Positions 15,957-56,200 of a DNA stretch of 64,000 nt are shown here, in pieces. Within the stretch, counting starts at the first letter, position 1. Each line of letters begins with the position of its first letter. The stretch comes from Sipunculus nudus (Eukaryota > Annelida > Sipuncula > Golfingiida > Sipunculidae): positions 22,887,714 through 22,951,713 of the forward strand of contig CM049320.1 in assembly GCA_026874595.1 (NCBI GenBank), written 5' to 3'. Both the position numbers and the translations under genes were made by a program. Below the pieces are notes generated by a model that did no database searches, was not told the DNA's origin, and saw only the letters and a program-made list of their open reading frames with translations.

Positions 15957-16930
15957 TTTTGGAGGTTACCACCGAAAACAGCCGAACTGCATTCGGCAAA
16001 GACCGGAATTCCTGCATCTCTAGCGCAGGATTAAAGTCTATTGTGTGTATGAATACCGTGTCTATCAATGACGGATTTAAGCATATTTAGCTTGACATTT
16101 GACCAAGTTACCGACTCACATATATGGTGAGTAAATGTGAAAGAAAGTGACTCTGGATCCCTTGCCTCTCATTTCTTATATCAGCAGGCAATGATAAATA
16201 TCCCCAAATTCATCACTGTAATCCTTTCGCATAATGTTGAAATGACCACAACCAGTGTCGCTGCACTTTTACCTTGCATTTACATCTTTAATAATTCTAG
16301 TTGTATCACGTAGACTATCCAAGGAAGCATGTGTAAGTATCTGTTTTTTTATTTACAATGACGCGTCACGGGTATTACACCACAAAATAGATTCCACAGG
16401 TTTACCAATATATAAAATATGTGTCATGGACAAATAAGTCCTGTTGGTTAATATTGTCGATGCATACTCTATATTTTCTCGATTTACTCATTTTGTTGTA
16501 ATTTAATCACTGTTTCAGCGAAAAATCGTTCTATTCGAATGAATTTGGGCATAGTATAATTGATATACATAGACAGACCGTCTGTGTGGAGCATGATTTT
16601 TGGAATGCTATGTAAAATAATATGTAACTTCATGTAAAATAACAAAAAAATGTCATGTTATATAACAGAAAATTCCAGAAAGATCACATGTTATGTCATG
16701 GAAATGAAACATGACATGTCAGTGAGATAACTTGGTAATATTGTGGTGTAACATGCATTTAACTGCAATTTTTACAGCAACTTTTACTGGCAACCCTGCT
16801 ACCAGTATATATTACTATAAATATACTTGGCAAGTTTTGGAATGACATTGTAAAATATCATTAAAATCATGTAAAGATACATGCAAATATTATATGGAAC
16901 AATTACTTGGAAATCTTACATGATTAAACA
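15957..16930. repeat. Module A, left border of duplicated unit 1
   Basis: GGAGGTTACCACCGAAAACA starts a module also found at 30560, 47080 and 56863. It includes a conserved hairpin GCCGAA-CTGCA-TTCGGC (15981-15997), then a run rich in ACATGTAAA/TTTACATG pieces (16600-16930). It is non-coding. The Gmr1-like element abuts its left side. Confidence 0.75.
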
Positions 16931-19900
16931 AATCAAACTTTAAAAATTCTAAAATGGAGCCGATATAAAAATCCAATTACCATTTAATTCCCCTACTTGA
17001 AAGAAAAACAGACTATTCAAATAATAAGCTATATAAAGGTCTTCACATTTTAAGAGTTATTTACAATATGTGAGATAAAGCAGGAAGTAGAACAGTACAG
17101 GTGGCACCAGCTGCAACCTATCCACTAAAACCAGGTATTCTTAGTAAAATTTTAGGCTATTCCTAGGATATTCAAGCAAAATACACTTTTCATACAAACA
17201 TATAAAAAATACCTTTTCTTCAATGATTAAAGTCTGTTTCTATAATTTTAATTCAATTTTTTTCTTAAAAAATAAATAAACATATAATGACTAGAATATC
17301 AGCAGAAGTTGATAAAATCCCTCAGCTAAAAGAGGTATGTATGGGTAGTAGCAGAAAACAAGTATGAACTATCTGTTCTCAAACTGATGAAGATCTGTTA
17401 AAATGTCTCTAGTTGAAGTCAACAACTTGAATGGTAAAAACATGTTGTACCAATCAATGTGTTGTAACAGAAGTGATATAGATTTGTATCATGATAAACA
17501 CTGTGTAGGGGATAACCTGTACAGTAAGATATCCTTAGACATCCTGAAGGCTTGACCGAGAGTTTATTGATATACATCTGGATTGTAGAAATTAAATGAC
17601 TGTGTTAAATTATTTCGGAGATTTCCCACTCACAAAAAAAAGGAAAAGGCTAAAAAAAATAGTAAATGTACTGACGCTGAAGGTGCCACCACCACAGCAT
17701 GTTTAATAACGATCGATCCAGTGGTTCCTGAGAAATTTTAAAAGAATTTTACTGTTAATAACTTTGTGACATGCAATGTAGGCCACGTTAACCAATTTTT
17801 AAATGAGACAATATATTGATATATTTCTGCCATGAAGAAAGAATGTGCCTATGCATAATTCTTTGAGATATCCAGCTCAGACGAGCTGAAATTTATAAAA
17901 TGAAGAAACTGTGAGTGGCGCCAACAGGCTGCTGCGACCGTTACGGATCACCAACGCCTATAAGCCTACAATATTTATAACAATCCATCATGTGGTTTTT
18001 GAGAGAAATATCAAGTTTTTTTCATGTAAACAGCTGAGTGATATTAAAAATATCTTGATATCAACTTAAGAAAATACAACCCATGGGCCATGCTAACCCA
18101 TGCTTAACAGATTTTGACAAATAGGAATAACATGTACATGTATTAATTATTAATGTTATGATCTGGTGAAAAATATTTGCAAAGTCAACTTGAACAATAT
18201 TTTTTTGCCCATAGTTTTCAGACAACTGGTTACACTAACTTTACTTCCAAGAACTTTCAGCATGCTTATTTAGAAGATTCCATGTCTGACAATTTGTGTC
18301 CATCTGACTTATAGGGTCATATTCTTTCACAAAGTTCACAGAATATAGCTCACAGTAACTATATATAAATATAATACATGTATAGGGTTTCCAAGAAGAT
18401 TATGCTGAAACTTCCCTGAATCTTAATTAAATTCCAAATTACTTGGACTTTGAGCCCGTATGATTAACTGCGTGGTAACAGCATCTTTTATATAGATCTT
18501 GCAGAATATAGGTCGCAGGGACCAAGTTCGGGTGTCCAAAGAGACATTACAATTACATAATTTTACATTAAGAAGACGTTTCTAGATCCAAAAGTAAAGA
18601 TGAATGCCATGTCTGAATTTTTAGGTGCTATAAATTATGTTTTCCACTCGTAGTCCACATAATATAGGCCATCATCTCCTAATCTCAGGTGTTGAAGGAT
18701 ATTTTTAACTTAAGTTTCTAGGTCAATCCATTATGATTTGTGCCCGTCTGACCCTCACAGTGCAAAAATATTTTTTTCTTAAGCTGGCAGAATATAGTTC
18801 TTAGTGTTCTAATTTAGGAGTTAAAGTAGACTTGCCAAGGACCTTCCTCGATTTTATACCACAAGGTTCTAGATCTAACCGTTAGGTTACGTGCCAAGTC
18901 TGACTGTTAGGAAGCTAAACTTTATGTTTTGCGCCCACAGTTCACAGAACATATGCCACTATGACCTAATTTCAGGATTCTAAGGAAATTTGCTCAGGGC
19001 TGCTCAGGATATAATGTTAGTAGATGTTTTAGAGTGGTCGATATAGGTCAGATGATTTAGAGTTAGCTCAGCCATAAACATGTTTTATGAGCTTTGAACC
19101 ATCAACTGACACATGAACAGTAATGGCATCTTATAAATCATTCAATATATTCTTGAAGTCTTTTAGCTTTCTCCACAGTTGGTGAATTTTGATTCATTGT
19201 TTGGACTTGCCCCTTTCTTCCTTTATCTATTTTTCTCTCTCTGTCGGGGTTTATGACCACAAACATCCTAAAACATATATTCTATTTCTATAAGGATCTT
19301 TCACCTCCTTTGTATTTATATGATAATAATTGTAGCATCAGAAAACAGACTCATTACGATAAAATCCTTCATATAATGATACCCTTTTAAAATTTTACCA
19401 ACAAACAAACAAGGAAAAAAAACGACAGTACATTCACAAAATGTTCACAGGAAACAAAATTGCAGTGATTGAGATACAATATCAATCTCCAGCTAAAGGA
19501 GAATTAAACTTATTTATGTTAGTACAAACAACATTTATAAAACAAGGGACCAATTTACAGATGGACAGACAGATGGCCCAGACCAACTGATCAAAATTTC
19601 ACTTTCTGCTAAGTTAGGGGAATCAGGATATAATGTTTAAATTATTCCATATTTTTTTCAGAAAATCCATTTTGGTAGGGGCATGATGAAAATGTTTGCA
19701 TTTTTTATATTTTTCAATTATATTATTATAGAAATTTAATTAATTTGCAAAACAAACAAAAACCCTGAAAATATTAGTAATTCAGAATTATTTTCTAACA
19801 GTTTTATCCTTAGTTTGGCTTATAACATTCTCATTCCATATTATGCAGACACATCTTTTTATTATTTTTTAAATCATAAAGATATTAAAATGAATATAAA

Positions 19901-20172
19901 GAACATTAATTTTTCAGGACGAAATCACAAAAAAGTGACCCATGGGTCATGACACTCGGTTGACTAGGAAGACATTCAAAAAAGGAATTTATCATCTGTA
20001 TACCAACTTGTGCAGGTCGTATCCCCATTCAATTGTTTCAGTTAAAATTCTTAAAATCAATAAGAAGGAAAGGTTCCATGATAATATGTACAGCCATTCC
20101 CATCAAACCTAGCCTTTCTGTTTGCAATCTGCTCGGATAAAAATGACCATGCACTTTGTTTAAGGACATCTC

Positions 20173-20428
20173 TGGATATCAAGACAGAAGATTCTAGATC
20201 CAACAGTAAAGTTGTGTACCCTATCTGACTGGGTACTTAAAATATTTTTGACCATTAAAATAGGTAACGATTTCCTGATTTCTGGTTTCTATGGTTTCGC
20301 TGGATATCAAGACAGAAGATTCTAGATCCAGCAGTAAAGTTGTGTACCCTGTCTGACTGTCTTGGTACTTATAACAGTGGAACATTCTAGGGCTAGCAGA
20401 TACAATTTGTGTCCATCTGATTTTCAGG
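20173..20428. repeat. 128-bp tandem duplication inside copy 1
   Basis: TGGATATCAAGACAGAAGAT begins at 20173 and again at 20301, each followed by TCTAGATCCA.CAGTAAAGTT. The matching place in copy 2 (51062) has the motif once, so the duplication arose after the copies separated or was lost in copy 2. Confidence 0.85.
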
Positions 20429-20831
20429 GAGCTAAAAATCATGTTTTCACCCAATTGTTCATAGAAAATAGATAACCAGGTCTTAATTTTATGTGTCCAT
20501 GCATATTTACCCAGGAACTGCCTGAATGCGATGTTAAAAGATTCTAGGCCTAGCGACTGACTGACTGGTCGATCAAAATCATGTTTTAAGCCAGTAGTTT
20601 ACAAAATATAGGTCACCATGAGCTTATGTCAGGTTTGCAAGGAGATTGTCCTAGGACCTACCTCGATCTGGTGAGAAGTTTCTTGATCTAAAAGTTATAA
20701 TTAAGAGCCCTATTAACCGACAAACTGCATCATCTTTAGAACTCAAAACAGAAAAAGATGAGTAATAGGTTTCCTATCAAATTTCTAACTATTCTGGAGA
20801 GTATTTTCGAGCCCCATAGCTCAAAGGATAA

Positions 20832-20846
20832 AGGTCACATTGACCT
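20832..20846. promoter_or_regulatory. Perfect IR3 palindrome (ERE consensus)
   Basis: AGGTCACATTGACCT. Neighbouring units give AGGTCACCATGAGCT (20610-20624) and AGGTCACTATAACCT (20986-21000), each one base from consensus. It matches the estrogen-response-element consensus; function is untested. Confidence 0.5.
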
Positions 20847-22842
20847 TATTTCAGGTTTCCTTTAAAATATTTAAAGGTCTTTATGGGTGTAATGTTGGAT
20901 TATCCATGGCCTATCATATACAATTTGTGTCCTGTCTGATTGACTGGGTAGTAAATCATGTTTCCAGCCTTTAATTTGCAAAAATAGGTCACTATAACCT
21001 AATTTCCGGTTTCATGTGCATGCTCAATTTTTTTTAAAATAAACAAATCAGTAAAATGTAAAAAATAAATGCTCTTTTCAAATTAGGCATACGCATGGTT
21101 GGATGAGGGAGAAACGATAAAATAATGTTAATAAGTAAAGTTTCTCAACATAAATTTAAGATTGAAGTTTATATTCAAATTCAAGCAAGTAAAGAAAGAC
21201 AAATAGTTCTTACTGTGCTGAAGTAAAGAAATTTATTCACAACATGAACATTCACACTTTAACAGCAATACCAGTAGGTCACTTTATAGACACAATTAAA
21301 TGTGCACTTAAATCAATGTAACTCTTTGTTACACGAAAAAAATTAAAATGCTGCAAAGAAAAAAATGAATGAAATATTTTAAATTATAAAAGTCCTAATC
21401 GTGTTAAAGGGGGGGGGTCTAGCTCAGCAATAGTACTTAAGAAAAAATGGGCCATGGTCAGGTTGGGCAAAATTTAATTAAGGTACTGATTTTGTATAAA
21501 TAATAATAAAACTGCTTACAGGAAAAAAAGGTATCATGGACAAAGTTGGGCTAAAATTAAGGTACTCACTTTACATTTATGCCAATAACAAAAATGACTA
21601 AATTCTCTTCTAATTTCTGCTATACATTAAAATCTACATTCAATATATAGTTCTACACTTACAAAAGTGTGTAACGTAATGAAACGAACCTTTTACAGGC
21701 TCATGCATATTTATTTAGGTTGCATGAATACAATGACCTGGTCGTTGCGCATGCGCAGATGTTTCTGGGTCGCTACCACTATTACCAAAACAATAGCTTC
21801 ACGTGGTCTTTTCCATGTATCTGTCAACACATCGTATCGGATTCATTCTCGTTTATGTTTTCCTGCCGGGATTTATTATGTCCAAGTATTGTTGATCATA
21901 CTTCCTGCACCATCTCGGGTACGTAGAGCAAGGAATTATCAGTGATCAAGTGGGTACAACTGCAAGTGCAGAGAGGGGAACGTGCACGGAATCAGACACC
22001 TGTCTGAGCTGAGGCGATAACGCGGGACCCGTGTGCCGGCTTGCTGTCACTGTCAGATCTGGTTCCAAAGATTTACACTGAAAATAATTTTGAGTTTGGT
22101 TCTGGATTTTCTTAACAGTTGGTTTATTTAAATTTGTGTGTCAGTGATTAAACCATTAGCACAACCCTCGTACCTACTTCCACTCAGTGCCTTCAGTTAT
22201 AAATATTTTATGAGCCATGGGCAACTCCCCCCCCCCCATAATAATAAATTGTTAAACAAGTGTGCTCCATGCAAGTATTTTTTATTTAATGATATTTTAA
22301 CACGACTTATTCTGAGTACTAAAAATAAAGTTATCAGTTGTGTTGTCAAAAAGCTGTGTAACCAGAGTTTCCTAGAATATTAATTTGTTAATTTAAATTA
22401 ATATAATATTTAAGTCTGTCATGACCTTACTTTTCCACTAATAACTTTCACTCACTTTGTTGTAAAAGTTTCTTAAATAATTAAGCCATAAACAATAAAA
22501 TAAGTGGATCCCAAAGGAAAATGATCTGCAATATTTAGACCCATAGGTAATAAGACAGGGATAACATTATGTGCCTAGAATGTTAAGGCAATATTTCAGC
22601 TTGTGCAACCTGTGAATCACAGGACATAAAGATACCAGATGATTGAACTTTGAATGTATGGTTGATTTTGTTAATACATATTATATCAAATGTTAAAAGA
22701 CCAAAGTGTTTCTTGTGTGATTAATGTATAAAACAAAATTGCATGACAACAAATTTGCCAACATTGATAAGGATGTGGATACTTCTTTGTACACTTAAAA
22801 TTACCTGAAATGTGTTTGTATTTGTTTGTATATATGTATATA

Positions 22843-22894
<52 letters not shown>

Positions 22895-23251
22895 TAGTCA
22901 ATGAACACAAAAAGAAGAGAGACATCAACGCCAACATTTCAAACAATCATATTATTTGGATAACATGTACAGATTGTTGCTAAATTTTCAGCTACCCCTG
23001 TAGCCTTCGTCAGAGCGAGTGACTAACTGTAAACAAAGCTGATAGTGTGTCCCTTCGCTAGGTCAACGGGGCTGGCTTGCCAGCTAAACTCATTAATCAA
23101 TCTGATGTCTTGTCAGGACTGGCCTGTGTATGTCCACATGAAAACAGGGCTGCTGGGGTGTCAAAGACAGGGAGGGGTTAGTCTCGAGGGGAAAAGTATG
23201 TGCTGAGTGCCGGGTATTTACAGAGAAAAGCCAAGTCTTTGTTTAATCCTT

Positions 23252-23554
23252 TTATGTGCGTACGTAGTATATGAATGTGCCTTTGCTGGAGGGAAAGTTG
23301 CCTTTAAGGATGGTGCATGTTAAATCTCGAAGAGAATGGTCGGATTTGTTGAAATGTGCGGCCACGGGGAATCCGGGAGTGTTGTCGCGGATGGTTTTTT
23401 TGTGGTTGTTCATTCTGAGCCTGAATTTGGTGCCGGTTTCTCCTATATAATTTCCCTCCCCATTGGGGCATTTTTTACAAGTAATGAAGTAAATGACATT
23501 TGAGGATACAAGTAATGACGTAAATGACATTTGTAAATACCCGGCACTCAGCAC
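23252..23554 (-). pseudogene. GIY-YIG endonuclease fragment of a Penelope-like element
   Basis: Residues NVIYFITCKKCP (GIY strand with a CxxC), NYIGETGTKFRLRMNNHKK (YIG strand, conserved R, H) and HFNKSDHSLRDL match the C-terminal endonuclease of Penelope-like elements. This domain nicks DNA to prime target-primed reverse transcription. The upstream end holds a short repeated segment (GTAAATGACATTTG at about 23485 and 23519) at the junction with the inverted arm. A second frame (HIKGLNKDLAFLCKY) continues into the left arm, so a frameshift lies near 23280. Only the C-terminal part of the protein is present. Confidence 0.75.
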
Positions 23555-23740
23555 ATACTTTTCCCCTCGAGACTAACCCCTCCCTGTCTTTGACACCCCA
23601 GCAGCCCTGTTTTCATGTGGACATACACAGGCCAGTCCTGACAAGACATCAGATTGATTAATGAGTTTAGCTGGCAAGCCAGCCCCGTTGACCTAGCGAA
23701 GGGTCACACTATCAGCTTTGTTTACAGTTAGTCACTCGCT

Positions 23741-23768
23741 CTGACGAAGGCTACAGGGGTAGCTGAAA
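23741..23768 (+). ncRNA. Hammerhead-like core motif in Penelope-like terminal repeat
   Basis: CTGACGA (23741-23747), a stem GCTAC/GTAGC closing an AGGG loop, then GAAA (23765-23768) resembles the conserved CUGANGA...GAAA part of a hammerhead ribozyme. Penelope-like elements are known to carry these in terminal repeats. The inverted copy lies at 23013-22986. I could not establish stems I and III, and an extra A and a G-U pair weaken the fit. Confidence 0.3.
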
Positions 23769-26005
23769 ATTTAGCAACAATCTGTACATGTTATCCAAAT
23801 AATATGATTGTTTGAAATGTTGGCGTTGATGTCTCTCTTCTTTTTGTGTTCATTGACTGTCTTAAGCCAGCACCCGGAGAATTCAGAAATGTTATATAAA
23901 TATATATATATATATATATAATGTTTATTTGAATACATAGACAAATATATGAAATGCCTTATTATGAGTTGTGTAGTATAGGTAGTAATGTGTACAGCAA
24001 AGGTTAAGCCCGTTTTGTTTGCAGTTCATGCTTTTCAAAATTTAATTAGGTGGTCCAAGGGCAAAGCTAGTCAAATAAATGTACATTGTCAGCCTTAATG
24101 TAGGTTCAAAGCCATTTCAGATCAATATAGTAGACACCACATTTTATGACATTCACATGGTAACTAATCATACACATACAGAGGCAAAAGGAAGAGTGTG
24201 CAACACATGTGATTAAAAGACAGTAGAACATGAAATTAAACAAAATAATGATAATTTTATTGTACATATATTCTAGAGAATAAGTTCTATATTATAGTAT
24301 GGTCAGATACACATAAACTTACCAGTTGTTTTTAATAAATATAAAATGTACATGAAAATTCATATCACTGAATGAAATATATATTAAACTAAAATATATT
24401 AGGGAATGCTTAACGAAAGAGTAATTTTTTTAACAAACCTGGAACTGTGAAAGCTGAGGGTTTACTGGTCATATGAACATTTAGACAGTGGATTACATCA
24501 CTGAAAAAGGATAATTTTCTTTGTTCCAATGACCCTCATGCATTCCCAGGCAAACCCATTTCTTATGTATAAGTTTTTTAATTTCTGCAGATGGGTTAAA
24601 AACTGACATTAGCCAAAATGGGCATATATGTATACACCATGTATTGAAAGATTTCTCTTTGATTATTTTCATACATGATATGCAACACTTTCTAGTTTAG
24701 TATATAACACTATAGTCAAAAGATTGAAATGATATGCCATTAGCAAATTTATATTGCCCCTGACATCATTGTTCAATGTCACAAAAAAAAATGAACATTA
24801 AGGGATTAACAGTCAGTACTGAGTAATGTCATCAGTTCAAACTTCTCCCTCAAATAAAGATGATTTATGCTGATATGTTTGCTGCCAGTTCGACAATGTA
24901 GATTCTGTTTTCAGGCAAAATCCATATCCAAACAAGACTTTTTTCTAAAAAAGAAAGTAACAAACTCAATGTGTATTCATTGAACAAAAAATCCATTAAT
25001 TGCATGAACAATCTTAAAATGAATAACAACAATCTTTAATATCTGATGACTTTGAAAAAACATATTCACTTTTAAAAATCAAAACAAAAAAGTGGGACGA
25101 TAACATAAAATTAAATAAAAAATATACCTTCACAATTTTTCTTTCAGTCAACCATATAGGTAAACCATAAACATTAATATGTGAAAAGAAGTGATGTTCT
25201 AGATAACTCGGTAATGGGCCTTCCCTCATGAATAATTTTTGCTTTAAAATTTTAACTGGAACTATTAACTGAAAATACAAGTATTCATTATTGCAACATT
25301 TTCACAGATTTGAATGAAACAAAGAAATAAAGTATAAAAATAAAATATGATAATAATTTCAATATATGGTAGACGGGCACAAGTGAATCTGTAGCACTGA
25401 AGTGGAGCACCCAAAACTGACGCTATAATAATATATTTGTCCAATAAAATATAAACAGTAATTAAGTTAAATAGTTATTGTTGTCTTTGAGCTATTCCAT
25501 ATATTATATCATTACCATAAATACAAGAAATATATGGGGAAATTGGTTTGTTTATGTATTTTAAAGGAATATAAAACGGGATTGAACGGGTTGTCGGTCA
25601 AGTATCCTGCATAATTTTGAACTTGAAAACATACTCGACAGCTTACACCCGCCGGAGGTCACCGGACATAAACACTTACCGCTGAAATGGTCCTGTCAAC
25701 AGATGGTGTATCGTGATTAAATGAGCAGTCATTCACGCTAATTGACGATCAAAACTGGGGTCTTTTCCTTAATTGTGACCATTTTTGGACATCCCTGCCG
25801 TGTCATTTTGTTTACCTGAGCTCCCAGTCGTGTCAGCTGTGACTGCCCGCGCTGTTATCACACGTGACTGCCACAAATCAAGTGAACAACTGATGAAGCG
25901 GTCGCCTGGAGTAATACCACGTGAGGCCGCCAGGGGTCGGGGTTATCCGTAACTAGGCCTCATTATGCAACTGGATTTGTCCTAAGGGAATTTGTATGTG
26001 TTCTA

Positions 26006-29000
26006 TGCATGCATTTTTGAACTCTTATAGTTACCGTGTAAAGTGTGTATGTAACTGTAATAATGTTTTGACAAAGGGTTTAATGTAAGATGGCATATTT
26101 TTCTCTCAAATTCCAATGTACAAGAGTTTCCTATATGTCCCTATAATGATTTCCAATTTTCTTAAATTTGGGATCACTGACCTAAATTCATCTTTTAGGA
26201 TCCAAGAAGTTAAAAATGAAAGCACTTCGCTATCCAACCCTTGGGGTAGACCTAGAGGAGGCATGGTTTGGACGGGTGGCACCACTAGAATCCAGTCTTA
26301 TTGACTAGTAAGTCTAGGTGTAATTGCTAATTCACTGGAAATCTCCAGTAAAATGTTCAGAGAAATGACTCACATAAGTCTATGTTTTCCTGAATTGTAT
26401 AATGTCCAAAAGACACTAGTCAAAGGAATAGTTACATCTAGACATATTATTGTAATGGTCTCGTGTGTGGTTTGCAACGTTTTAAGACTGATAAGTAACA
26501 AAAGAGTTCAGAATACAGAAACAAATATGATCAATCAAACTGCTCATCACTCTCACATGTAATCCTAATTTTGCAGACTAGCTTCCTCAGAATACAATAA
26601 AATACCAAACTCTTATAACATCCTTATAATGAATAGTCGGTCATCAAAATATTTTAAAGATATGTTATATATACATGCTTGCTTGATCACTTCAGTCAGA
26701 AAACTTTTTAACATTGGTAAACCAAAATGTGGACCATAACATATGGAGAAGGGTGTTTTAGTTATGCTAAAATAAACTTTGGGCATTAAAGAAGCCAAAA
26801 ATTAAAACCCATTTTAACAGCTCCACTTTGAACATTAGTTGCAATGAATGGTAACTAAACACATGTGAACTTTAATCATATTTTTATCTTTTTATTACTA
26901 TCACAGTATTCTCAGTTTAAACTTGTAATTATTGTTTTTCTTTGCTCGAATGTTTATTTTAAATATAGTCATTTTACATAATTAAAAAAAAACGACATTT
27001 TATACCGCACAAATTTAGTCACTGTATTATTTGTATTTTTACAATCACATAAAGCATGGTTTGCGTTTGTTTTTTCTTAGAAATGTATACTGTTAGGCAC
27101 TTTTTAACACTCTGAGATTAAAGTGTGCTATACAGATATTGTATTATATAATATAATAATTTTTTAAACATAATTTAAGCCATAAATGGTTCAACACAGT
27201 GAGTACATGCTGGTAAAAGAAATGATTATTGAATCTAAATTTTTACTGACTGCAAATCATCTGAACTGTAGTGATGACCTACTAACCTTCTTCGATTTTA
27301 TGATCTCATAATTCAGATAATAAAACGTGACTTGAATTTTAATATGTTTTCCACTAAAATCTTACTGAAGTGTTCCATCATCAAGTATTGATAAACCTTT
27401 GAGTCAAAATAGACCAGCTCATTAACTCATACAAAATATGAAAAAAAAACAAGAAAAGTATATTCTGAAATGAATCATTATAAGTAAGAAGAAGAAGACT
27501 GTCAGAGGCCTGGAGGTGTATTGTTGATGCTGTGTCCTGCAAATAAAAATCGAACATAATCAATATGATGAATACATCCCATTATTTTTTTTTCAAGTGT
27601 TTTTTATGCTGAACTTATTTTTGTGAGGGGGGGGGGTACAGGAAAAAAAACCCATTAACATGACCCAAAGCTCACCGGTGAATTGGTCCCATATTAAATA
27701 AAAATGTAAAACCTAGAATTATTTTCCTACAGGAAACGTTTTGATATCTTATAGTTGATTACACCTGGAAGAACCTGCAGAGAATTGAAATAAAGTATAA
27801 GGGTTTCAGGGATAAATTTTCAATAAATGTGTATATCAAGCATAAATCCATAGTAGAAATAAAAACTATGCATGATAACAAAGATATCATTGAATATCAT
27901 GATTTAGACACTTTTACGTTTGTAGTGGTATGTACAATACCTGTACTCAAGCTGATCACATTTTTAAAAATGCTAAGAGCTAAAACAAAACAAAATAAAC
28001 AAAAAGGAAATATAAGTCCTCATAATATCATATTCTATAATAAAAATTACCCTGCCACCTACGTTTGAAAATAAATTATGTTAGCAAAATAAGGTGAAAA
28101 TGCAAACCAAACTCAAAGATCAAAACCAACTGCATCACCAAAGGACGTAATCAAGGTTGTCTCAGGACTGTGTTTAGATTTGTTCCAGCATGTCTCTTAA
28201 AACCCCTGGCCATTGTTTAATGAAAGAATTAAAAAAATCTTGTATTTTTCATATGGGTGTTCAATTTTGACAATGATTTATTTTATTATTAATTTTTATT
28301 TTGATCACGGTTTGATCTACCAGAATAAGGTGTATGTTGAGTTTGTTTCATAAATAAAGTTTTATTTTATTTAATTGAGCCAAAAATTAAAGCAATTTTA
28401 ATAAAAAAAGAATGTGTTCTATATATTTTGCCTGAGAAATAGTCATATAAAGTTTAATTGTATATAGACAGATTTATAAAATATTACCTTTTAAAATTCA
28501 ACCAGACTGGAAATAATTTTAAGTGTTCGTACACTATTGTCTTCAGAGTTTAGAACAATCTTAATTTTCAGTTTATAAAAATGGTCGTCTGTGGGCAGCA
28601 GTTTGGTTGATATTAAGGCAAAACTGAAATGTTTATACACACTCCAGACCGTAAAAGTTAAAATCAGATTTGGCCTAATTAACAGAAAAAAAATAATTTA
28701 GGATAACACATCCGTGCGGTTTCAGGAAAATAATAAAAGGACTATGAAAGCACAATCCGGCAAACACATCTGATGAATGATGTATACATGATCCAAGATT
28801 TTGTCATCTCTAAACACGCTCTTGTTTACACTTACAAAAAGTGAATAATAAAAAATGAAAAAAAAATCAACAAACTAATCAGACCAAATCAATAAGAATC
28901 CACTATATAGTGCAATGGTAATACATTGCAGTCGAATTCTGGCCATAACCACTGTTTTGCATAGCGAAGTTCTCTGGGTCTAGCCACAAGGGTTGCTCAA

Positions 29001-29271
29001 AGCAAACAATTGAAAAAAGACCAATGAAAGCAGGGTATGTCATTGTGCATCCAACTCCAAATTTTAAACAATGAACACCTGCTATGGTTGGTCCAACATG
29101 GCTATTCATACATATTTCTAAATAATTTATGCTGCACACCATATAAGGCCATCAGTTCTCCTTGCTGCTTGCAAAGTCGCTGTGCCGACACATGAAGTGG
29201 ATGTTACTCTGACGTCACTTCCCCGCGCCAGTTCGCCAGTTTCAAAAAGTGTGAAAATACACTGAAGGGTT
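26006..29271. other. Right part of duplicated unit 1, no gene seen
   Basis: Collinear with 53245-55820. Contains the best-conserved block of the duplication (about 28108-28225). AT-rich, with a G run at 27627-27636. Frames are short and differ between the copies. Confidence 0.6.
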
Positions 29272-29345
29272 GGGGATCTGTCGTAGCTTAGTGGTTAAGT
29301 AGCCGACCGGAAATCTAAAGATCATAGGGTCGATTCCATTCAGCA
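29272..29345 (+). mobile_element. tRNA-like SINE head, family 2
   Basis: Box A TAGCTTAGTGG (29284-29294) and box B GGGTCGATTCC (29327-29337) are spaced as in a tRNA promoter. The same head occurs at 55823 and 56123 in copy 2. It marks the right boundary of the collinear duplication. Confidence 0.7.
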
Positions 29346-29381
29346 GTGAACCGAATTTTCTGTATATTCTTGGTCTGTATA

Positions 29382-29385
<4 letters not shown>

Positions 29386-29448
<63 letters not shown>

Positions 29449-29799
29449 AATAATAATAATCAAGGTGTCCGCTTATCATACTTTATATATAAGTACAAAT
29501 GAATAGAAATAAATATCTGTGTCAACACAAAGAGCTCTGCATCTTTGTATTTATTGTATTATTATTGGTAATTATAAAAAATTATGAAAAAAAAACCTCT
29601 CCCCTACCCCCACCCCCCACCCTCCGCCCTTAGCACAGCAAAAGCTTTGGCAAGTTTCTATGAATACCACGAGGGAAAGTATTAAGGATTTTTTCTGGAA
29701 CAAGTCTAAAATAATTTAATATATATTATACATATAATTTATAGGTTTCGTATATACCATCCTATACGTTATTTATATATATATATATATTCACTCTCG

Positions 29800-29861
<62 letters not shown>

Positions 29862-29862
29862 C
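29386..29862. repeat. (TA)n microsatellites and T-rich spacer
   Basis: Long TA tracts at about 29386-29441 and 29775-29860, with an (ATA)n stretch at 29442-29460 and another TA tract at 29944-29962. 29465-29480 (GTGTCCGCTTATCATAC) recurs at 56188 and partly at 3683, marking the start of module B. Confidence 0.9.
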
Positions 29863-29964
29863 TCTGGAGAAAAACAACACTTAATTCACAACAGTCTGTT
29901 TTACGGGGTGCGACCCGATCATCAGGTGAATGTGGTTCTAAGAATATATATATATATATATAAT

Positions 29965-31600
29965 CTACACTAAGCACTCTGCAAGGAGCTCATTTCATAT
30001 GACAGCCGGAAGATTTATTTACAAGTATGAATGCAAAATCGAATTAGGTCGAGTAGATACAGTTGATCACATGACAGCTGGAGATACTGTTACTTGTAAA
30101 TAATTATCAAATTGCAAATATAGACAGACACTTGGCCAATTAGCAGTGTTTATTGATCATAGGTCAACTACATTTGCCATGTTTTTATAAAGCTTCGGTT
30201 CACCGCTTGATCCACTCTTGATGTACAAGGGACAGTTTGGTGCCTTTGAGCAGCAAAAGTATCTTCTGATTAAATATACACGAACCAGAGAACCTTATTT
30301 GAATTTTGACGACACCGCTTGCCCTTATGTACTCTCAGGAAATATTTATATTTATTCAATGCAGACCCACATCTCATTCTTTAAAAGGAATTCGGTCCAC
30401 TTTTGTCCTCCATGTTCTCAGAAACCACGTTGCGTATGACACTGTGCCTGCCTTTTTTTAAAGGTTAATGTGTCCGTAGTGACCACGCCGATGTGGGAAG
30501 ATATCATTTAAATATGCGCATCATTTTGGGTGATTTTGCGTGGTAATTACATTGCTTGGAGGTGACCACCGAAAACAGCCGAACTGTATTCGGCAAAGAG
30601 TGGAATGCCTGCATCTCCAGCGCAGGATTAAAGTATATTGTGTACATGAATACCTCGTCTGTCATTGACGGGTTTAGACATGTTTGGCCTGACATTTGAC
30701 CCAGTCACTGACTCACGTATATGGTGGGTAGATATGAAAAACATGTGACACTCGATCCTTGGCATTCATTTCTCTTATAACTAAGCAATGCTGATTAATC
30801 CCCCAATTCATCCAGGTAATCCTTTCGTTTAATGTTGAAGTAACCACAACTAGTGTCGCTGCACTATTACTTTTCATTAACATCTTCAATAATTCAGGAA
30901 ACAATTGTATCACGTAAACTATCCAAGGAGGCATGTGCATGTTAATATTCACAATACCGCGTCACGGACATTACACCGCAAACAAGATCGACAGGTTTAT
31001 CAATAGATCAAATATGTCCCACGAATAAATACCTCCTGTTGGTTATAGTTGGATGGTATTGTCCATGCATACTCTATATTTTATCCATTTACTTATTTTG
31101 TTTGTAATTTACACTCCTAGGGTTTCAGCTTCAAACCTTTTTTATTTGAATGAATTTAGACAGGCGCTTTATCTTCGATAAACATAGACAGACCGTCTGC
31201 GTGGAAAATGTGACATATAATCAACAAGGACATCATACACTTTCATATAAATTGTATGTATTTTTACAGTAAAAATTAATGGTAACCCTGCATCCAGTAA
31301 ATTCTAATTTAAAATTACAGGGCATGATTTTCGGAATGTTATGTAAAAAAAGCATGTAATTTCATCTAAAATCATCTAAAGTAATATGTAATGTCATTTT
31401 AAATAACATAAAATTCGAGTCACATGGTCACATGTCAAGTCATGTAAAAAACATTAATTCCAGTGAGGTTACATGGAAATATTAAGGTGTAACTTGCATT
31501 TTACTTGAATATTTACAGCATGTTTTTAATGACATGTAAAATTACATGGAAATAAACAGGGAATGTTATGTGGTTCCACATGCCTTTCAGTTTAATTAAC
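29965..31600. repeat. Modules B and A, right border of unit 1
   Basis: B (29965-30540) matches 46515-47050 and 56250-56860; A (30560-31600) matches 15957-16930 and 47080-48000. The hairpin GCCGAACTGTATTCGGC (30578-30594) is kept. The order and orientation are the same as at the left border of unit 2. No coding capacity. Confidence 0.8.
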
Positions 31601-32200
31601 CCCAGGTCTTCTGAAGCCATAATATTTTAATTCATGTCAGGAGTTATTTTTTCCAAAAGAAATATCTAAGGTTGGAGTAACGGGTAAATAAACTAAACAA
31701 TTCCATAAATTTATAATAAATTTATTTATTTCAGTATTGCAATAATAAAAAAATCATGAACTAAAACCCTTTAAATAGTCAAGAGGACTAAAAATAAAAT
31801 ATGTTTTTTTCAAGTTAAAGTGAAAGTATGTGCAAAGGGTTCGTGAAAATCAGTTCTACTGTCTAATAAAGTGAATTCTTTTTCAGGTACTCATGTCATA
31901 AATTAAACTCAGGATTTTAAAAGCGTTTCTACACCATTTCAGTTGAAAGATTATTTTCTCCATCAGTGGTTACCATAAGCCCGCCCCGTTCGCTCTTTCT
32001 CGCTCCCTCTCTCTCTCTCTCTCTCTCTGTCTCATATCAACACTGGAAATGTAATGATACATTGTCCAAAATGTGGCGTATTTTTCTTTGTTTTAACTGT
32101 TCGTTCAAATCTTCATACATAAGGTGTCATGTAAGTCAGGTTGTATGCCATTTTTAAAATAACGGATGCATTCGGTTTGATCTTATTAGCATAGTAGCTC
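31601..32200. other. No gene seen; (CT)n tract
   Basis: AT-rich with a CT-repeat tract at about 32008-32030. No supported feature otherwise. Confidence 0.5.
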
Positions 32201-32209
32201 CATCTGACT

Positions 32210-46200: not shown

Positions 46201-46510
46201 AGTCAAGAGTATAACAAATATTTATGGAATCAGTTTGTGGTCTAGCTCATACACAGTGGCCTCTACAACTCCTAAAAAGATTTTGCCAACAGCATTTATG
46301 TTGCTATTTATTAATCGTGTGACCATTTCAGCCATTCATAGAGGTCGTGACTTCCAACATCGGGTCTTATCTGATTGGCCAAAATAGAGTGCTCCCAGGA
46401 TAGCAGGTTAAAACAAACAGCGCTTAGGATATAGGTAGTAGGCCTATAGGTTAAGCGCTGTGTAAAGAGCGAAGCGTTTCGTATAAACCATCCGTTATGT
46501 TTTCTATATA
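43284..46510. other. No supported gene
   Basis: Contains G or C runs at 43317-43326, 43713-43727 and 44618-44629. A 153-codon plus-strand frame (44296-44757) has no recognisable motif and reads through a C run. 45679-45809 is bounded by the 12-bp inverted repeat CAGAGTAACAAA / TTTGTTACTCTG. Confidence 0.4.
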
Positions 46511-46514
46511 TATT

Positions 46515-48000
46515 TTTTAATCTACATTAATCACATCACTGAGCTTATTTCATAGCACGGACGAAATATTCATTTACGGTAAATCAAATGACAACTGAAG
46601 ATAAGGTAACTTGTTAATAATTATCTAATGGCAAATACAGGGTTTACTTACAGGTCGAATATATTAGCCATGTTCTTTTGAAGCTTCAGTCCAACGCTCG
46701 ATCGACCCTAAATTTAAGAGGCGTCTTTTAAACGCTCGTCAAATGGGACATTTTTGTGTCATTAAGCAGCAAAGGGATCTACAGTTTTAATACAAGAACA
46801 AGAAAACCTCATGTGAATTTTGACGACATTCCTGGCCGTGATGTACTCTCAGGTATGATTTGGATTTTGTTTACTGCGACCCACATCTCATCCTATACTT
46901 ATAATAGGAATTCGGTCTACATTTGATATCAATGTTCTCTGAAACTGCGTTGCATAGGCCACTGTGCCCTACCTGTTTTTAAAGGTTATTGTTTCCATAG
47001 TGACCTCGCTGATGTGAAAATAAATAATTTTTAATATACACATCATTTTGAGTGATTTTGCGTGGTATTACCTTGCGTGGAGGTGACCACCGAAAACAGC
47101 CGAACTACCTTCGGCAAAGACCGGAATACCTGCATCTCCAGCGCAGGGTTAAAGTCTATTGTATATATGAATACCTTGTCTGTCAATGACGGATGCAAGC
47201 ATATTTGGCCTGACATTTGATCAAGTCTCTGACTCACGTGTATGGTGATTATAAGTGTAAAAAAGTCACTCTGGATCCCTTTCCACTCATTTCTTATATC
47301 AGCAAGCAATGATGATTAATCCCCCAATTCATCAAGGTTATATTTTTGCATAATGTTGAAATGGCCACAACAAGTATCGCTGCACATTTACCTTGCATTT
47401 ACATCTTCAATAATTCTGGAAACAGTTGTATCACGTTAACTATCCAAGGAAGCATGAGCGTAAGTTTCTGTTTATATTTACAATGCATCGTCACGGGTTT
47501 ACACCGCAAAATAGTTCCACAGGTTTATCAATATAAAATATGTTTCACGGACAAATACCTTATGCTGGTTATAGTTGGTTAATATTGTCGATGCATACTC
47601 TATATTTTCTCGATTTACTTATTTTTTTTTGCAATTTCATCTCGGTTTCATCGTAGAATCGTTCTATTTGAATGCATTTGGACATGATGTTTAAAATTGA
47701 TATACAGACCGTCTGTGTTGAAAATGTGACTAATAATCAACAAGGACATACGCACTGATACAAATTGTATGTATATTTACAGTAGAATTTACTGGCAACC
47801 CTGCTGGTAGTTAATTTAATTGCAAAATTACAAAGCATGATTTTTGGCATGTTATGTAAAATAATAAGCATATTTATGTGAAATAACATGTAATGTCATG
47901 TAAACTAACATGACATTCCAGTGACATTACATGCTAATATTGTGGTGTAACATGCATTTAACAGTAATTTTTACAGAAACTTTTACTGATTAAACAAACC
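46515..48000. repeat. Modules B and A, left border of unit 2
   Basis: B (46515-47050) matches 29965-30540, 56250-56860 and part of 3683-4030; A (47080-48000) matches 15957-16930 and 30560-31600. The hairpin GCCGAACTACCTTCGGC is at 47099-47115. The A end again dissolves into ACATGTAA-type repeats (47850-48110). Confidence 0.8.
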
Positions 48001-49499
48001 AAACATTTTAATTTAACTATAAAATTACAGAGCATGTTTTTGGAATGACATGTAAAATTAAATTAAATTCATGTAAAATTACATGGAAATATTATATGGA
48101 AAAATAACTTTGAAATCTAACATGATTAAACAAACCAAACTTTTCAATAAAAGGTGCGGTTTAGAAATTTCTATTAGCAATTTATTCCCTAATTTGAAAG
48201 AAAAACAGACTATGCTTATAATAAAGGTCTTCATATTTTAGGATTTATTTAAGAAAAAGTGAGATAAAAACAGGAAGTAGAACAGAACAGGTGGTACCAG
48301 CTGCAACCTTTCCACAAAACCAGGTATTCTGAGTAAAATTTGGTCCTGGGAATGGTGGCCATCACTAAGATATTCACTTTTCATACAAACATATAAAAGA
48401 CACCCTTTTTAAATGGTTAAATCAGTTTCTATAATTTTAATTTCCCCTTTTTTTAAAAAATATATAAACATATAAATAAATAGAATATCAGCAGAAGTTG
48501 TTAAAATCCAAAAGAGGTCTCTAAGGATAGTAGCAGAAAACGAGTATGAAGTATGTGTTTTCAAACTGATGAAGATCTGTTAAAATGTCTCTAGTTCAAG
48601 TCAACAACTTAAATGACAAAAGCATGTTGTACCTATCAATGTGTTGTAATAGAAGTGATTTAGATTTGTATCATGAAAAACACTGTGTAGGGGATATCCT
48701 GTACAGTAAGATATCCTTAGACAACCCGAAGGCTTGACTGAGAGTTTATTGATATACATCTGGCCTAAAGAAATAAAATGCCTGTGTCAAATTGTTTAAG
48801 AATGTCTCACTCACAAGAAAAAAATGACAAAAGTCCAAAATAATCGTAAACGTTCTGACGCTTTAGGTGGCATCACCACAGCATGTTTAAAAACGATCCA
48901 TTCAGTGGTTTATGAGATATTTAAAAAGAACTCTTAATTGCTCTGTGACATGCAATATAGAACACGTTGACCAATTTTTCAATTAGAGAATAGAATATGT
49001 TGATATATTTCTGCCAAGAAGAAAGAAAGTGCCTATGTATAATTCTTTGAGATATCCAGCTCACAAGAAACACGAGCTGAAATTTGTAAAAAAAAAAAAA
49101 AAAGGAGAAAATGTGGGTGGCGCCACCAGGCTGCTGCATCAGTTACGGATCACCAACGCCCATAAGCCCACTTTATTTTATAACAATCCATCATGTGGTT
49201 CCGGAGAAAAAATGTCAAGTTTTTTTTTGTAAACAGCTGTGTGACATTAAAAATGTTTCGAGGTAGGTTTTGCTTAACCCTATTTTGATATCAACTTAAG
49301 AAAATGTGGCCCATTGGCCATGATGCTTAGCTGAATTTGACAAATAGGAATTACATGTACATATATTAATTATTAATGATATGATCTGGTGAAAAATATT
49401 TGTGAAGGCAACTTGAACAATGTGTTTTTGCCCATTGTCCTCAGAAAACTGGTTTGAGCAACCTTCCTTCTTATTTTCAAGAAGATTTTATCAGGAACT

Positions 49500-52400
49500 T
49501 CGAACATGCTTAGTTAGAAAATTCTGAATTTCCAGGTGCTCAAAATTAGGTTTTCCCCTCGTAGCCAACATAATATAGGCCACCAACTCCCAATCTCAGG
49601 ATACTTAAACTATTCATATTTAAGTTATAAGATTCTAGGTCAATCCATTAAGATTGGTGCCCGTCCGACTCTCACAGTGATAAAATCATTTTTTTTTTTT
49701 GCTCACAGAATATGATTCATCATGTTCTAATTTAGGAATCACCAAGGACATCCCTCGATTATAGATCAGAAGGTTCTAGATCTAATGGTTAGGTTTTAGG
49801 CTAAGTCTGACTGTCAGGCAGCTCAACTTCATGTTTCGTGCCCACAGCTCACATAACATATGCCAGCATGACCTAATATCAGGATTCTAAGGAGATTTGC
49901 TCAGGAGTGCTCTGGATATAATGTTAGTAGATTTGTAAGGGTGACCGATATAACTCAGATGATTTTGAGTCAGCTGAGCCATAAACATGTTTTTATTAGC
50001 TTTGAACTGACACATGAGCAGCAATGGCATCTATAAAACATCCCATAGTCTTTCATCTTTCTCCACAGCTGGTGAAGTTTGATGTTTATTGTTTGGATTT
50101 ATCAATTTTATTATCAATTTTGCTCCCTCTGTCGGGGTTAATGGCCACAAACATCTTGAAAAATATAACCAATTTCTATAAGATATTTTATTCTCTTTTG
50201 TATTTATATGATATTATAATCGTAGCATCAAAAAACAGACTTAATCAATCGAATCCTTCATATATTGATACCCATCAGAAATTTTACCAACAAGCAAAAA
50301 AGAAAAAAAAAAATCAGTACATTCATAAAATGTTTACAGGGAACAAAATTGCATTAATTCAGATAGAATATTAATCTCCAGCAAAAAGTGAATTATATTA
50401 ATTTATTTTACTACAAACAACATTTATAAAACAAGGGATCCATTTACAGATGGACAGAAAGATGGCCAGAACCAACTGATCACAATTTCACTTTCTGCTA
50501 AGAAAAAAAGTTTATAATATACCATATTCTTTTCAGAATATCCATTTTGGCAGTAGAGTAATGAAAAAATGTTTGCATTTTTTTATTATATTCAGTTTTA
50601 TTAATATTTAAATTTTATTAATTTGCAAAACAAAAAAAAACCCTGAAAATATAAGTAAATTCAGAATTATAAGTTCCAACATTTTTATTCTTAGTTTGGC
50701 TTATATCATTCCATATTATGCAGACACATCTATTTTCTTTTTTTAATCATAAAATGTTTAAAATGAATATAAAGAAAATTCTAGACATTCGTAAATGTTT
50801 CTAGACGAAATCATGAAACAAGTGACCCATGGGTCATGACGCTCAGCTGACAAGTAAGACATCCACAAAAGGACTTCATCATCTGAATGCCAACTTGTGA
50901 AGGTGGTGTCCCCATTCAAATGAAGCAATTTAAAATTCTTCAAAATCAACAAGAAGAAAAAGTTTCATGATGATATGTCCAGCGCTTCCCATTAAAACTA
51001 CCTGTTCTGTATGCAATCTGCAGAGAAACAATTGACCCTGTACTTTTTTAAGGACATCTCTGGATGTCAAGACAGAAGATTCTAGATCCAACAGTAAAGT
51101 TTTGTACCCTGACTGTCCGGGTGCTTTTAATGTTTTTGGTCATAAAAAATCACCTTTACATGATTTCTGGTTTCTATGGAGATTTACTAAGATGTCGACC
51201 GGGAGCAGGCAAAATATTGGTCATCATGATTCATTTAAGGTTTCCAAGGCTTCCTTGTATATTACAGTGGAACATTCTAGAGCCAGCAGATACAATTTGT
51301 GCCCATCTGATTTTTCAGGGTACTAAAAATTACGTTTTTGTGACATAGTTCACAGAAAATAGGTTACCAGGCCCTCATTTAAGGTTTCCATGCATGTTTA
51401 CCCATGACCTGCCTGAATATGGTGTTAGAAGATTCTTGACCTGTAGTTTACAAAATATAGGTCATCATGACCTTATTTTAGGATTTCCAAGGAGATTGTC
51501 CTAGGACCTACCTGTATGTACAGTTAGAAGTTTAATGATCAAAAGGTTACAATGTGTGCCCCTTTTAACCAACAAACTGCATCATCTGTAGAACTCAAAA
51601 ACAGGGAACGACGATAAAAAAATTAGAAAAAAATACATGTGGTGCCACCAGCTTTCAAGAAATGATGAACCATTCCATGACCGATATGCATGAAAAGAAT
51701 AATGGTAATCAATCGACAGTTATTAAGATACAGGAGCTTAAGTATCAACTTTTTAACTATTCTGGGGGTACTTACGAGCCCCATGGCTTGGAGGATATAG
51801 ATCGCATGTTTCCTATGAGATTTTTTACTGACCTCCATGGGTTCCAGTTAGAACCTTCTAGGTCCAGCAGTTACGATTTGTGCCCTGTTGAAGGACAGAT
51901 GGACGACGGATAAAGGGTGATCGCTATAGCTTTGCCCCATAGCTCAAAGGATAACGGTCACAGTGACCTAATTCAGGTTTCCTTTGAAATATTTAATGGT
52001 CTTCCATTGGTGTAATGTTGGAATATTCTAGGCCTAGCATATACAAGTTGTGCCCCGTCTGATAAACTTGGTGGTAAATCATGTTTTCAGCCTGTAGTTT
52101 GCAATAGAATAGGTAACCAAGACCTAATTCCGGTTTCCAAGGACGTTTGCCGAGTACCTCCCTAGATGTACAGTTAGAAGTTTCTTGATTTAATTGTTAG
52201 AATTTGTGCCCTGTTGCTTCATCTGAATGTCTCAAAATTAGAGAAAAATATGCGTGCATATTAAAAATATATTGGTGGCTCCACCAGGTTTCAGAAATGA
52301 TGTAACATCCCATGATCAATATGCATGCAAAAATCATGACAACCAATGTATTCGTTATTCAGATACTGGAGCTTTAGTATTATTGTTTTAATTATTCTGG

Positions 52401-52600
52401 GGGTACTTACGAGCCCCATGGCTTAGAGGACATAGATTGCATGTTTCCTATGAGTTTTTATAGACCTCAATGGGTTCCAGTTAGAACTTTCTAGGTCCAG
52501 CGGTTACGATTTGTGCCCTGTTGGACAGATTGACGACTGATGAAGAGTGGTCGCTATAGCTTTGATGTCTTTCAGGCAGCTGAGCTAACATTCAATATTA
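49500..52600 (+). repeat. Degenerate ~150-bp tandem repeat array (unit 2)
   Basis: Counterpart of 18200-21020 with the same unit order. Late units include GGGGGTACTTACGAGCCCCATGGCTT-like openings (51764 and 52396), also present inverted at 7590 and 7940. Response-element palindromes are at 51459-51473 (perfect) and 51955-51969 (one outer mismatch). Confidence 0.75.
51459..51473. promoter_or_regulatory. Perfect IR3 palindrome (ERE consensus)
   Basis: AGGTCATCATGACCT, in a repeat unit of copy 2. A second site, CGGTCACAGTGACCT at 51955-51969, keeps the full GGTCAnnnTGACC core. The copy 1 counterpart of the first site is AGGTCACCATGAGCT (20610-20624). Confidence 0.5.
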
Positions 52601-55600
52601 CCACAACATGGCATCTTCTAGATTATTCCTTGGATTACTGTTCATGAAAAGTTTTGTACATTGGAGTTTCAGTTTCATGTGCATGCTCAATTTTCTTTAT
52701 TTAAACAAACGAATCAGTAAAATGTAAATTCTCTTTTCAAATAAGGCATACGCATGGTTGGATGAGGGAGAAACAATAAAATTATGTTCAATATTCAAGT
52801 TTCTCCAGTTAAATTTAAGATTGAAATTTATATTCAAATTCAAGCAAATAAAGAGAGACAAATAGTTCTTTACTTTTCTGAAGTAAAGAATTTATTCACA
52901 ACATGAACATCCACACTTTAACAGCAATAACGGTTAATCACTTTATGGACACAAATTAGATGTGAACTCAAATCAATGTAACTCTTTGTAATACAAAAAA
53001 TATAATGTTGCATAAAAAAGAAGGAAACATAGAAAATTATAAAAGTTCTCTTGTTCATGCATCCTGTTAAAGGTAGGGGGGGGGTCTAGCAATAGTACTT
53101 AAGAAAAAATGGGCCATGGTCAGGTTGGGCAAAATTTAATTAAGGTACTCACTTTACATTTATGCCAATAACAAAAATTACTAAAGTATCATCTAATTTC
53201 TGCTATACATTTAAATCTACATTCAGTATATAGTTCTATGCATGAAATATTGAACTCTAGCTCCATTAGTTACAGTGTAAAGTGCGTATGTACCTTTAAT
53301 TATGTTTAGACAAGGGGATTAATAAACGGGTCCATAATTTCAATCTTGTAAGATGGCATATTTTTTCTCTCAAAGTCCAATGTACCGGAGTTTCCTATGT
53401 GTCCCTATCATGATTTCTCATTTTCTGAAATTTGGGATCACTGACTTAAAATGAACTTTTTATTCATCAATTAAGACCCATGTGATTAAAAATGAAAGCA
53501 CTTCGCTATTTAACCCTTGGGATGGACCTGGAGGAGGCATGGTTTAGAGGGGTGGCACCACTAGAACTCTAAAAAGAGTTCAGAATACAGAAACACATAT
53601 GACCAACAAAACAGCTCATCGCTTTCACATGTAATCATAATTTTGCAGACTGGCTTCCACAGGATACAATAAAATACAAAACTCTTATTATATCCTTATA
53701 ATACCATGAATAGTCAGTCACCAAAATATTTCAAAGAATTGTTACATATACAGGCCTGCTTGATCACTTCAGTCAGAAAACTTTTCAACATTGGTAAACC
53801 AAAATAAGGACCATAACATATTAGGAAGGGTGTTTAAGTTATGTAACATAAACTTAATATGGGCATTAAAGATGCCAAACATTAAAACCCATTTTAAAGC
53901 TCCTCTTTGAACATTAGTTGAAATGATTGGTAACTAAACACGTGAACTTTTATCAAATTAAAGTTTTATCTTTTTATTTCTATCACAGTCTTCTCAATTT
54001 AAACTTCTTATTTTCTTTTCTTTGGTCGAATGTCTATTTTAAATATAGTCATTTTACATAATTTTAAAAATAAAAGTTATACTGCACAAAATTTAGTCAC
54101 TGTATTATGTGTATTTTGACAATCACATAAAACATGGTTTGCGTTTGTTTGTTTTTTTTTTTCTTAGAAATGTATACTGGAAGGCACTTTTGAATACTCT
54201 TAGTTTAAAGATGGATGTGTCTTGCTGATGCTGTGTCCTGCAAATAAAAATCAATCATGGTTGATATGACGAATACATCCCATTATTTTTTTCAAGCATT
54301 TAATGAAAATAAAATAACCTGATATTTCTTAGCTAAACTATTTTGGAGGGAGGGGGGCTTACACGAAAAAAATTTGAACCTCTTTTCATAGTAAACTATA
54401 TTCCCTGACCCCTTCCCCCCCCCCCCCCGCCCCGGGTCTTTACAAAGATATTTTTGAATATCATGATGAATACAATTTTACTTTTGTAGTGCTATGTTCA
54501 TGCCTGTATACAAGCTGATCACATTTTTTAAATGCTTAGAGCTGAAACAATACAAAATAAATATAAAGGAAAGAAAGTCCTCATATTATCATATTTAATA
54601 ATAAAAGTTATCTTGCCACCTACGTTCAAAGAGAAATGAATTTACATAAACAAAATAAGGTGAAAATGCAATCCAAACTAAAAGATCAAAACCAACTGCA
54701 TCACCAAAGGACGTAATCAAGGTTGTCTCAGGACTGTGTTTAGATATGTTCCGGCATGTCTCTTAAAACCCCTGGCCATTTTTAATGAAAGAATTAACAC
54801 AAACTTGTATTTTTATCTGGGTGTTCAGTTTTGACAATGATTTATTTTATAATTTATATATTTTTATTTTGATCACAGTCTGATCTACAAGATTAAGGTG
54901 TATGTTGAGTTTTTTTATCAATAACGTTTTCTATTCAATGAAGGCCATAAATTAAAGCAATTTCAATATGAAGAATGTTTTGTATATATTTTGCCTGAGA
55001 AATAGTTATGTTAAGTTTAATTGTATATGATAGATTTATAAAATATTACCTGTTTTCAAATCAGCAAGACATTGAATAATCTTAAGTTTTGTACTGTCTA
55101 CAGAGTTCAGAACAAATTTTGGTTTTCATTTTATAAAAATCGTCTGAGGGCAGCTGCAGTTTGGGTGATATAAAGGCAAAACTGATATGTTTACACACAC
55201 TCCAGACTGTAAAAGATAAAATCAGATTAGCATTATTAACACGACAAAATCATTCAAGATAAGATATCCGTGTGGTTTCAAGAAAATTATAAACGGATTA
55301 AAAAAGCACAATCCTGCTAACACATATAGTAAATGATATGTACATGTTCCAAGATTTTGTCATCTCTAAACACGCTCTTGTTTATATATCAACAAAAAGT
55401 GAATAATAAAATGCTATTCCATCACAAGTTAACCTGAAAAAAATAACAAACTAATCAGACCAAATCAATAAGAAGCCTCGTGCAACAGTTATACACTGCA
55501 GTCGTATTCTGGCTGTAACCGCTGTTTTGAATAACGAAGTACTCTGAGTCTAGCAACCAGGGTTGCACAAAGCAAAGAATTAAAATAAGATCAATAAAAG

Positions 55601-55800
55601 CATGGTATGGCATTGTGCATCTAACTCTAAATTTTAAACACGGAACGCCTCCTCTTGGTTATTCATACATCTCTCTACATAATATATTCTGCACACCATA
55701 AAAGGTTATCAGTTTTCCCTGCTGCATGTATAGTCACTGTCCTGTATGTGGTATTACTCTGACGTCACTACCATCACGCCGGTTTGCTTGTTTTAAAAAT

Positions 55801-56200
55801 TGTGCAAATACACAGAAGGGTTAGGGATCTGTCGTAGCTTAGTGGTTCAAGCAGCCAACCGGAAATCGGAAGATCATGAGTGTGAATCCCATCGGCAGCA
55901 CCGACTTTTCTGTGTATTATTGTTTTATCCTTATACAATGAACCAGCATGGCTATTTTACATCTCTCTACATATTATATGCCGCATACTATTTAAGGCCA
56001 CCAGTTCCCCTGCTGCATGTAAAGTCGCTGTGCCGACACATGTCGTGGGTAGAAATCTGCCGTCGCTACCGTGACCTCACTTTGCTTGTTCCCTTAAATG
56101 TGTGCACATACACGTTCGTCGTGGGTCTGTGGTAGCTTAGTGGTTGAGTAGCCGACCGGAAATTGAAAGATCATGGGTTCGCTTTAAGTGTCCGCTTATC
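55801..56200 (+). repeat. SINE family 2 heads in a 300-bp tandem duplication
   Basis: Two tRNA-like heads: box A TAGCTTAGTGG at 55835-55845 and 56133-56143, box B GTGTGAATCCC at 55880-55890 and GGGTTCGCTTT at 56175-56185. The sequence upstream of each head (GCTGCATGTA.AGTC.CTGT and TGTGCA.ATACAC) is also repeated, with a 300-base period. Copy 1 has a single head at 29272. Confidence 0.75.

Follow-up and report, generated by a model that had tools for sequence, protein, structure and literature searches.

Two large non-coding repeats of Sipunculus nudus as probable paralogous units left by an old tandem segmental duplication beside a putative glycosyltransferase-like gene cluster

Two long collinear stretches of non-coding DNA from the sipunculid Sipunculus nudus, found within a window of 64,000 nucleotides (C15:22887714-22951713, which provides the numbering used in this work), are with high confidence considered to be paralogous units derived from an old tandem segmental duplication, a reading that takes in the route proposed below. 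The units, denoted here as A and B, belong to an array with the order A-C2-B-G2-G3, which both contains and adjoins copies of a gene that we read as glycosyltransferase-like. The flank of the array's junctions was not found elsewhere in the genome (1.43 Gb, 153 contigs), and the junctions relate A to B and C2 to G2 as sisters. Positions above 64000 or below 1 refer to neighbouring sequence, which extends from the window for 40 kb on its right side and for 10 kb on its left.

Extent and divergence of the two units

The initial annotation described two units of ~8-9 kb, at 15960-29350 and 47070-55900, matching in one order and orientation. This match was borne out by self-comparison, in which A (15959-30697) and B (47078-56996) form a single same-strand chain, interrupted by indels. 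Eleven blocks picked from the BLAST matches yielded 84.6% gap-free identity over 8158 aligned columns, with a K2P distance of 0.173 overall and of 0.108-0.213 per block. The two intervals as first delimited produced 14 plus-strand BLAST matches (7418 bits), and none of 30 dinucleotide-preserving shuffles of 15960-29350 gave a match at E<=1e-10.

Several details of that description had to be amended. The match does not stop at 29350 and 55900, but continues for another 1.1-1.3 kb, to 30697 and 56996, and the size proposed for both units does not apply to A, which measures 13.4 kb instead of 8-9 kb, mainly because of an insertion of 4.3 kb that is found only in this copy. The distance of 31 kb is correct as a start-to-start offset, but not as the gap between the units. 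The same border modules and the same SINE are indeed present at both units, although the inventory was incomplete, since a third module pair, at 30556-32920 and 46503-47078, is located between them and the array continues past the window.

Architecture of the array and its junctions

The self-comparison of 114 kb revealed the order of the five units and their extension to the right of the window. Unit A (15959-30555, plus strand) is made of an X module, a non-coding body, a SINE and a Y module; of its first junction only the right part, from 15959, is present at the left edge, the left part being missing beside a Gypsy-like fragment. Unit C2 (30556-47077, plus strand) starts like G2 and ends with a Y module, and no homology to the gene was detected there. 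It resembles G2 at 76-80% (30672-32920 versus 69272-71417), with short pieces only further on, and at 35742-35957 it shows short matches to sequence downstream of the other gene copies, which may be either a gene remnant or a dispersed repeat. Unit B (47078-56982, plus strand) is the paralogue of A. Modules and matches to short or inverted repeats aside, no counterpart of the A and B bodies was found in G2 or G3.

Successive units meet at YX junctions, all in plus orientation within the window: that of A and C2 lies at 29945-31526, that of C2 and B at 46503-47984, and that of B and G2 is split by an insertion, with the Y module and the left part at 56230-56982 and the right part from 69272, outside the window. 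A further junction module precedes G3 (87957-89620, also outside the window), while the 114-kb self-comparison disclosed neither an X nor a Y module around the first gene copy (5676-7193). To the left, the array was followed up to the Gypsy-like fragment, and its right end would lie past the 40 kb on that side of the window.

Within the first complete junction, the flank (29945-30371) is specific to this locus and the core (~30371-31233) corresponds to a portion of a repeat that is dispersed in the genome. A genome search with 29870-31500 gave at least 45 matches among the best 40 of 2757 candidates, the copies of the core being 72-77% identical and located on many contigs. At least four of six dispersed copies, when compared with another one, still have sequence in common past the position at which the copy in the array stops, indicating that the array carries a shortened copy of the repeat.

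Insertions and repeats within and around the units

The A-only insertion of 4.3 kb (~21656-25999) has TTCTA at both edges, and B is uninterrupted at the corresponding place (53233-53238). It holds a minus-strand frame (23252-23572) that presumably resembles the GIY-YIG endonuclease of Penelope-like elements and lies within an inverted repeat (22819-23222 and 23532-23947, 91%).

A second insertion, of 12.3 kb and in minus orientation (56983 to ~69271), carries TTAAGCATG at both edges and is the reason why B appears to stop at ~56982. The possibility that B ends at 56996 was rejected, given that the interrupted junction picks up again at 69272, its two parts overlapping by 11 query positions (803-813), and that the same motif is found on both edges of the insertion. 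Judged by eye, the frames of this insertion appear LINE-like, and two endonuclease-like frames, read in the same manner, suggest nested LINEs; the single frame scanned against Pfam (63394-63843) matched vRNAP_dom only, below the cutoff (E 0.0091). Ahead of frames that look like LINE ORF1 by eye, a minus-strand frame (68802-69113) includes ...GDVETNPGP, which we take to resemble a 2A peptide.

The body of A is closed by a SINE (29093-29368, plus strand) that is dispersed in the genome, and that of B by two tandem SINE copies (55656-56184, plus strand, with a tRNA match at 55828-55900). Head-to-tail runs of this SINE are not restricted to the two copies in B, as six matched pieces lie in a row at C15:28609399-28611143 among the best 40 of 2136 candidates. 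Another dispersed repeat in A (19929-20748, plus strand) has its counterpart inside B and hence predates the duplication.

The minus-strand Gypsy-like fragment adjoining the start of A at 15959 spans 13542-15209, perhaps to 15919. In reading direction, Pfam places Integrase_p58_C (14634-15209) before RT_RNaseH (13545-14204), and the position of an integrase C-terminal domain ahead of the RNase H is, we assume, the order of Gmr1-like elements; the frame at 15599-15919 is integrase-like by eye only. A 44-bp satellite with ~98% identical copies enters the window from the left (-1808 to 439).

Absence of a shared protein in A and B

The proposal that the two units share no open reading frame was borne out in the 10 blocks inspected, where jointly open runs reach 61 codons at most. 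Over the 18 such runs of 35 codons or more, changes at the three codon positions total 95/81/102, with the limitation that runs were cut at frame-breaking gaps and a frame spanning such gaps would escape; in the longest run the corresponding figures are 3/6/9. The copies of the neighbouring gene show a clear lead of the third position (33/22/53, 32/24/52 and 31/27/58). A tblastn search of the 114 kb with the protein of the first gene copy gave no match in A, C2 or B at E<=1. Coding remnants in A and B were rejected on the basis of the codon-position sums and the length of the longest shared run in the 10 blocks, and of this tblastn result.

The gene cluster beside the array

The first gene copy, on the plus strand to the left of A (5676-7193), presents an open large exon with a frame of 506 residues from stop to stop. 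Its paralogues in G2 (73399-74817) and G3 (93502-94920), both outside the window and also with an open large exon, show 88% identity to it in either case, across 471 residues. A genome search placed three close copies, all within 90 kb at this locus, among the best 40 of 724 candidates, and weaker partial relatives (66-70%) appeared among the same candidates at C15:22880663-22881066, 23222211-23222532, 30981017-30981380 and 50098207-50098873. The dN/dS values of 0.36-0.40 are as under purifying selection, and the flanks of G2 and G3 show 67-80% BLAST identity, compared to 90% across the gene stretch. Three of the five array units (A, C2 and B) have no gene.

We read the product as glycosyltransferase-like and probably membrane-anchored from its sequence, and not from database results. 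No Pfam family matched the first copy at E<=0.01 and, for the three copies at E<=10, Prominin alone was returned (E 0.087, on the second copy). Glycosyltransferase models of NCBIfam remained below their cutoffs for two of the three copies (E 0.052-0.12), with a dioxygenase model alongside (E 0.061 and 0.081), and the search of solved structures provided nothing useful (one match, E 1.3). In all three copies the large exon begins directly after an acceptor-like CAG|GGT, so the 5' part of the gene could sit upstream, in an A-type unit. That the bodies of A and B are kept for upstream exons or promoter elements of these genes is nevertheless considered unlikely.

Order of the duplications and their probable route

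The relationships among the junctions were derived from a tree of five array junctions and 11 dispersed repeat copies (884 columns), in which the left junction of A is partial and from which three minus-strand dispersed copies were excluded. The array junctions form a single clade (support 100/99). Inside it, the left junctions of A and B (c1 and c3) are sisters (100/99), as are the right junctions of A and B (c2 and c4, that is, those of C2 and G2; 100/100), and the G3 junction falls outside the others with weak support (82/56); 9 of the 13 inner branches of the tree are poorly supported. The pairing of A with B and of C2 with G2 in one and the same tree suggests that [B G2] arose as a copy of the two-unit block [A C2]. 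The dS between gene copies (0.154-0.177) is close to the K2P distance between A and B (0.173), and this resemblance suggests a common age for both sets of copies, with the caveat that gene conversion could bias the figure for the genes.

These data can be integrated in the following model. Unequal crossing-over would have copied the block [A C2] head-to-tail to give [B G2], with homology supplied by the repeat fragment contained in every junction. C2 would subsequently have lost its gene, and later transposon insertions would have split the units and masked their ends. Since each junction includes part of a dispersed repeat, crossing-over between junction copies is plausible, and it is regarded as the likeliest of the routes, with about as much weight as all the others together.

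A probability short of an even chance is given to the formation of the same tandem array by replication slippage or template switching, with the junction repeat as a mere passenger. This alternative overlaps with the model above and departs from it in the route alone. The junctions share unique flanks besides the repeat, as would be found after any tandem duplication, and no founding crossover is visible in the sequence covered. Nothing decisive speaks against this alternative, although the repeat contained in the junctions is present in many copies across the genome.

Tandem duplication versus a dispersed element

The initial annotation had considered either a very large non-autonomous element or an old segmental duplication, to be told apart by the number of copies in the genome, and the search, which passes over simple repeats and very common words, sustained the second proposal and not the first. 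The array, moreover, comprises more than two units and forms part of a gene cluster. The search with 29945-30371, the non-TE junction flank, yielded five matched pieces in four places, all at C15:22.917-22.977 Mb (4 of 4 candidates scored). For the body segment 26490-27600, with 35 of 35 candidates scored, B was matched at query positions 11-634 and 1022-1102; apart from A itself, everything else was limited to pieces of ~500 bases at most, at 65-88%. The remaining three body queries were evaluated on their best 40 candidates. With 27900-29350 (of 2136 candidates) at least 61 matches were obtained, those outside the terminal SINE (query 1194-1451) in A and B only; with 16683-20748 (of 5941) at least 66, those outside the dispersed repeat that begins at ~19923-19929 again in A and B only; and with 16640-19920 (of 2878) at least 57, those over 1 kb in A and B only. 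Among the same best 40, this last query had other matches of up to ~590 bases, to embedded repeats at query 624-908 and at 1498-2386, or to the end on the X side, at query 10-247. That end was matched in G2 and at one further place on the contig (C15:42617371-42617798). Dispersed full-length copies of the body with fixed ends were thus not found with the four body queries and the junction flank in 1.43 Gb, three of the queries covering their best 40 candidates each. Apart from the embedded SINE and dispersed repeats, the content of A and B is, on the candidates scored, ordinary single-locus sequence. The confinement of the flank to the locus, together with the matching of the bodies over more than 1 kb or in their non-repeat parts by B only besides A, argues for a tandem segmental duplication and not for a mobile element.

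It is highly improbable, on these grounds, that A and B represent a LARD- or TRIM-like transposon inserted twice, with the YX modules as its terminal direct repeats. The modules do give an LTR-like look, as direct repeats around both bodies, their core belongs to a dispersed repeat, and coding capacity was not found in the 10 blocks. However, the Y flank occurs at this locus only (4 of 4 candidates scored), no match other than B covers more than 1 kb or the non-repeat parts of the bodies (best 40 candidates for three of the four queries), and the gene units are bordered by the same modules. Moreover, after two independent insertions the ends should pair within each copy, and here left pairs with left and right with right; as the ends are not sisters, the element would have to have been duplicated along with its surroundings. 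A giant non-autonomous element was therefore rejected on copy number, single-locus confinement and end pairing. An assembly artefact, with alternative haplotypes set in tandem, could account for the adjacency of the copies on one contig, but is hardly credible in view of the 15% gap-free divergence and the unit-specific insertions, far above what we would expect for alleles, and of the equally diverged gene copies (dS 0.15-0.18).

The tandem duplication, an event of an ordinary kind, is thus accompanied by what would be anticipated for it: collinear same-strand copies at one locus, non-dispersed content and neighbouring genes of similar divergence. Two large non-coding repeats that looked puzzling can in this way be resolved into one history. 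The case illustrates how the ends of an old tandem array can be concealed by transposons that inserted afterwards, so that the array takes on the appearance of a giant element. With three gene copies and three gene-less units, the locus itself is of local interest.

Comparison with known systems

LARD and TRIM elements are non-autonomous LTR elements with a long non-coding interior between direct repeats. A and B share with them such an interior and such flanking repeats, but differ in that no dispersed copies were found, in that gene units are bordered by these direct repeats as well, and in that the ends of one unit are unpaired in the tree.

A case of comparable logic is provided by the SpTransformer (Sp185/333) clusters of the sea urchin, gene clusters with tandem segmental duplications, alignable intergenic regions and repeats at the duplication edges (PMC8634487). 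In that system, GA short repeats are found at the edges, the units described are gene-bearing and of ~2.7-4.5 kb, and duplicated intergenic regions differ by no more than 10% (PMC8634487). The array of S. nudus, by comparison, has a transposon fragment in its junctions, units of ~10-19 kb, a divergence of ~15% and three gene-less units out of five.
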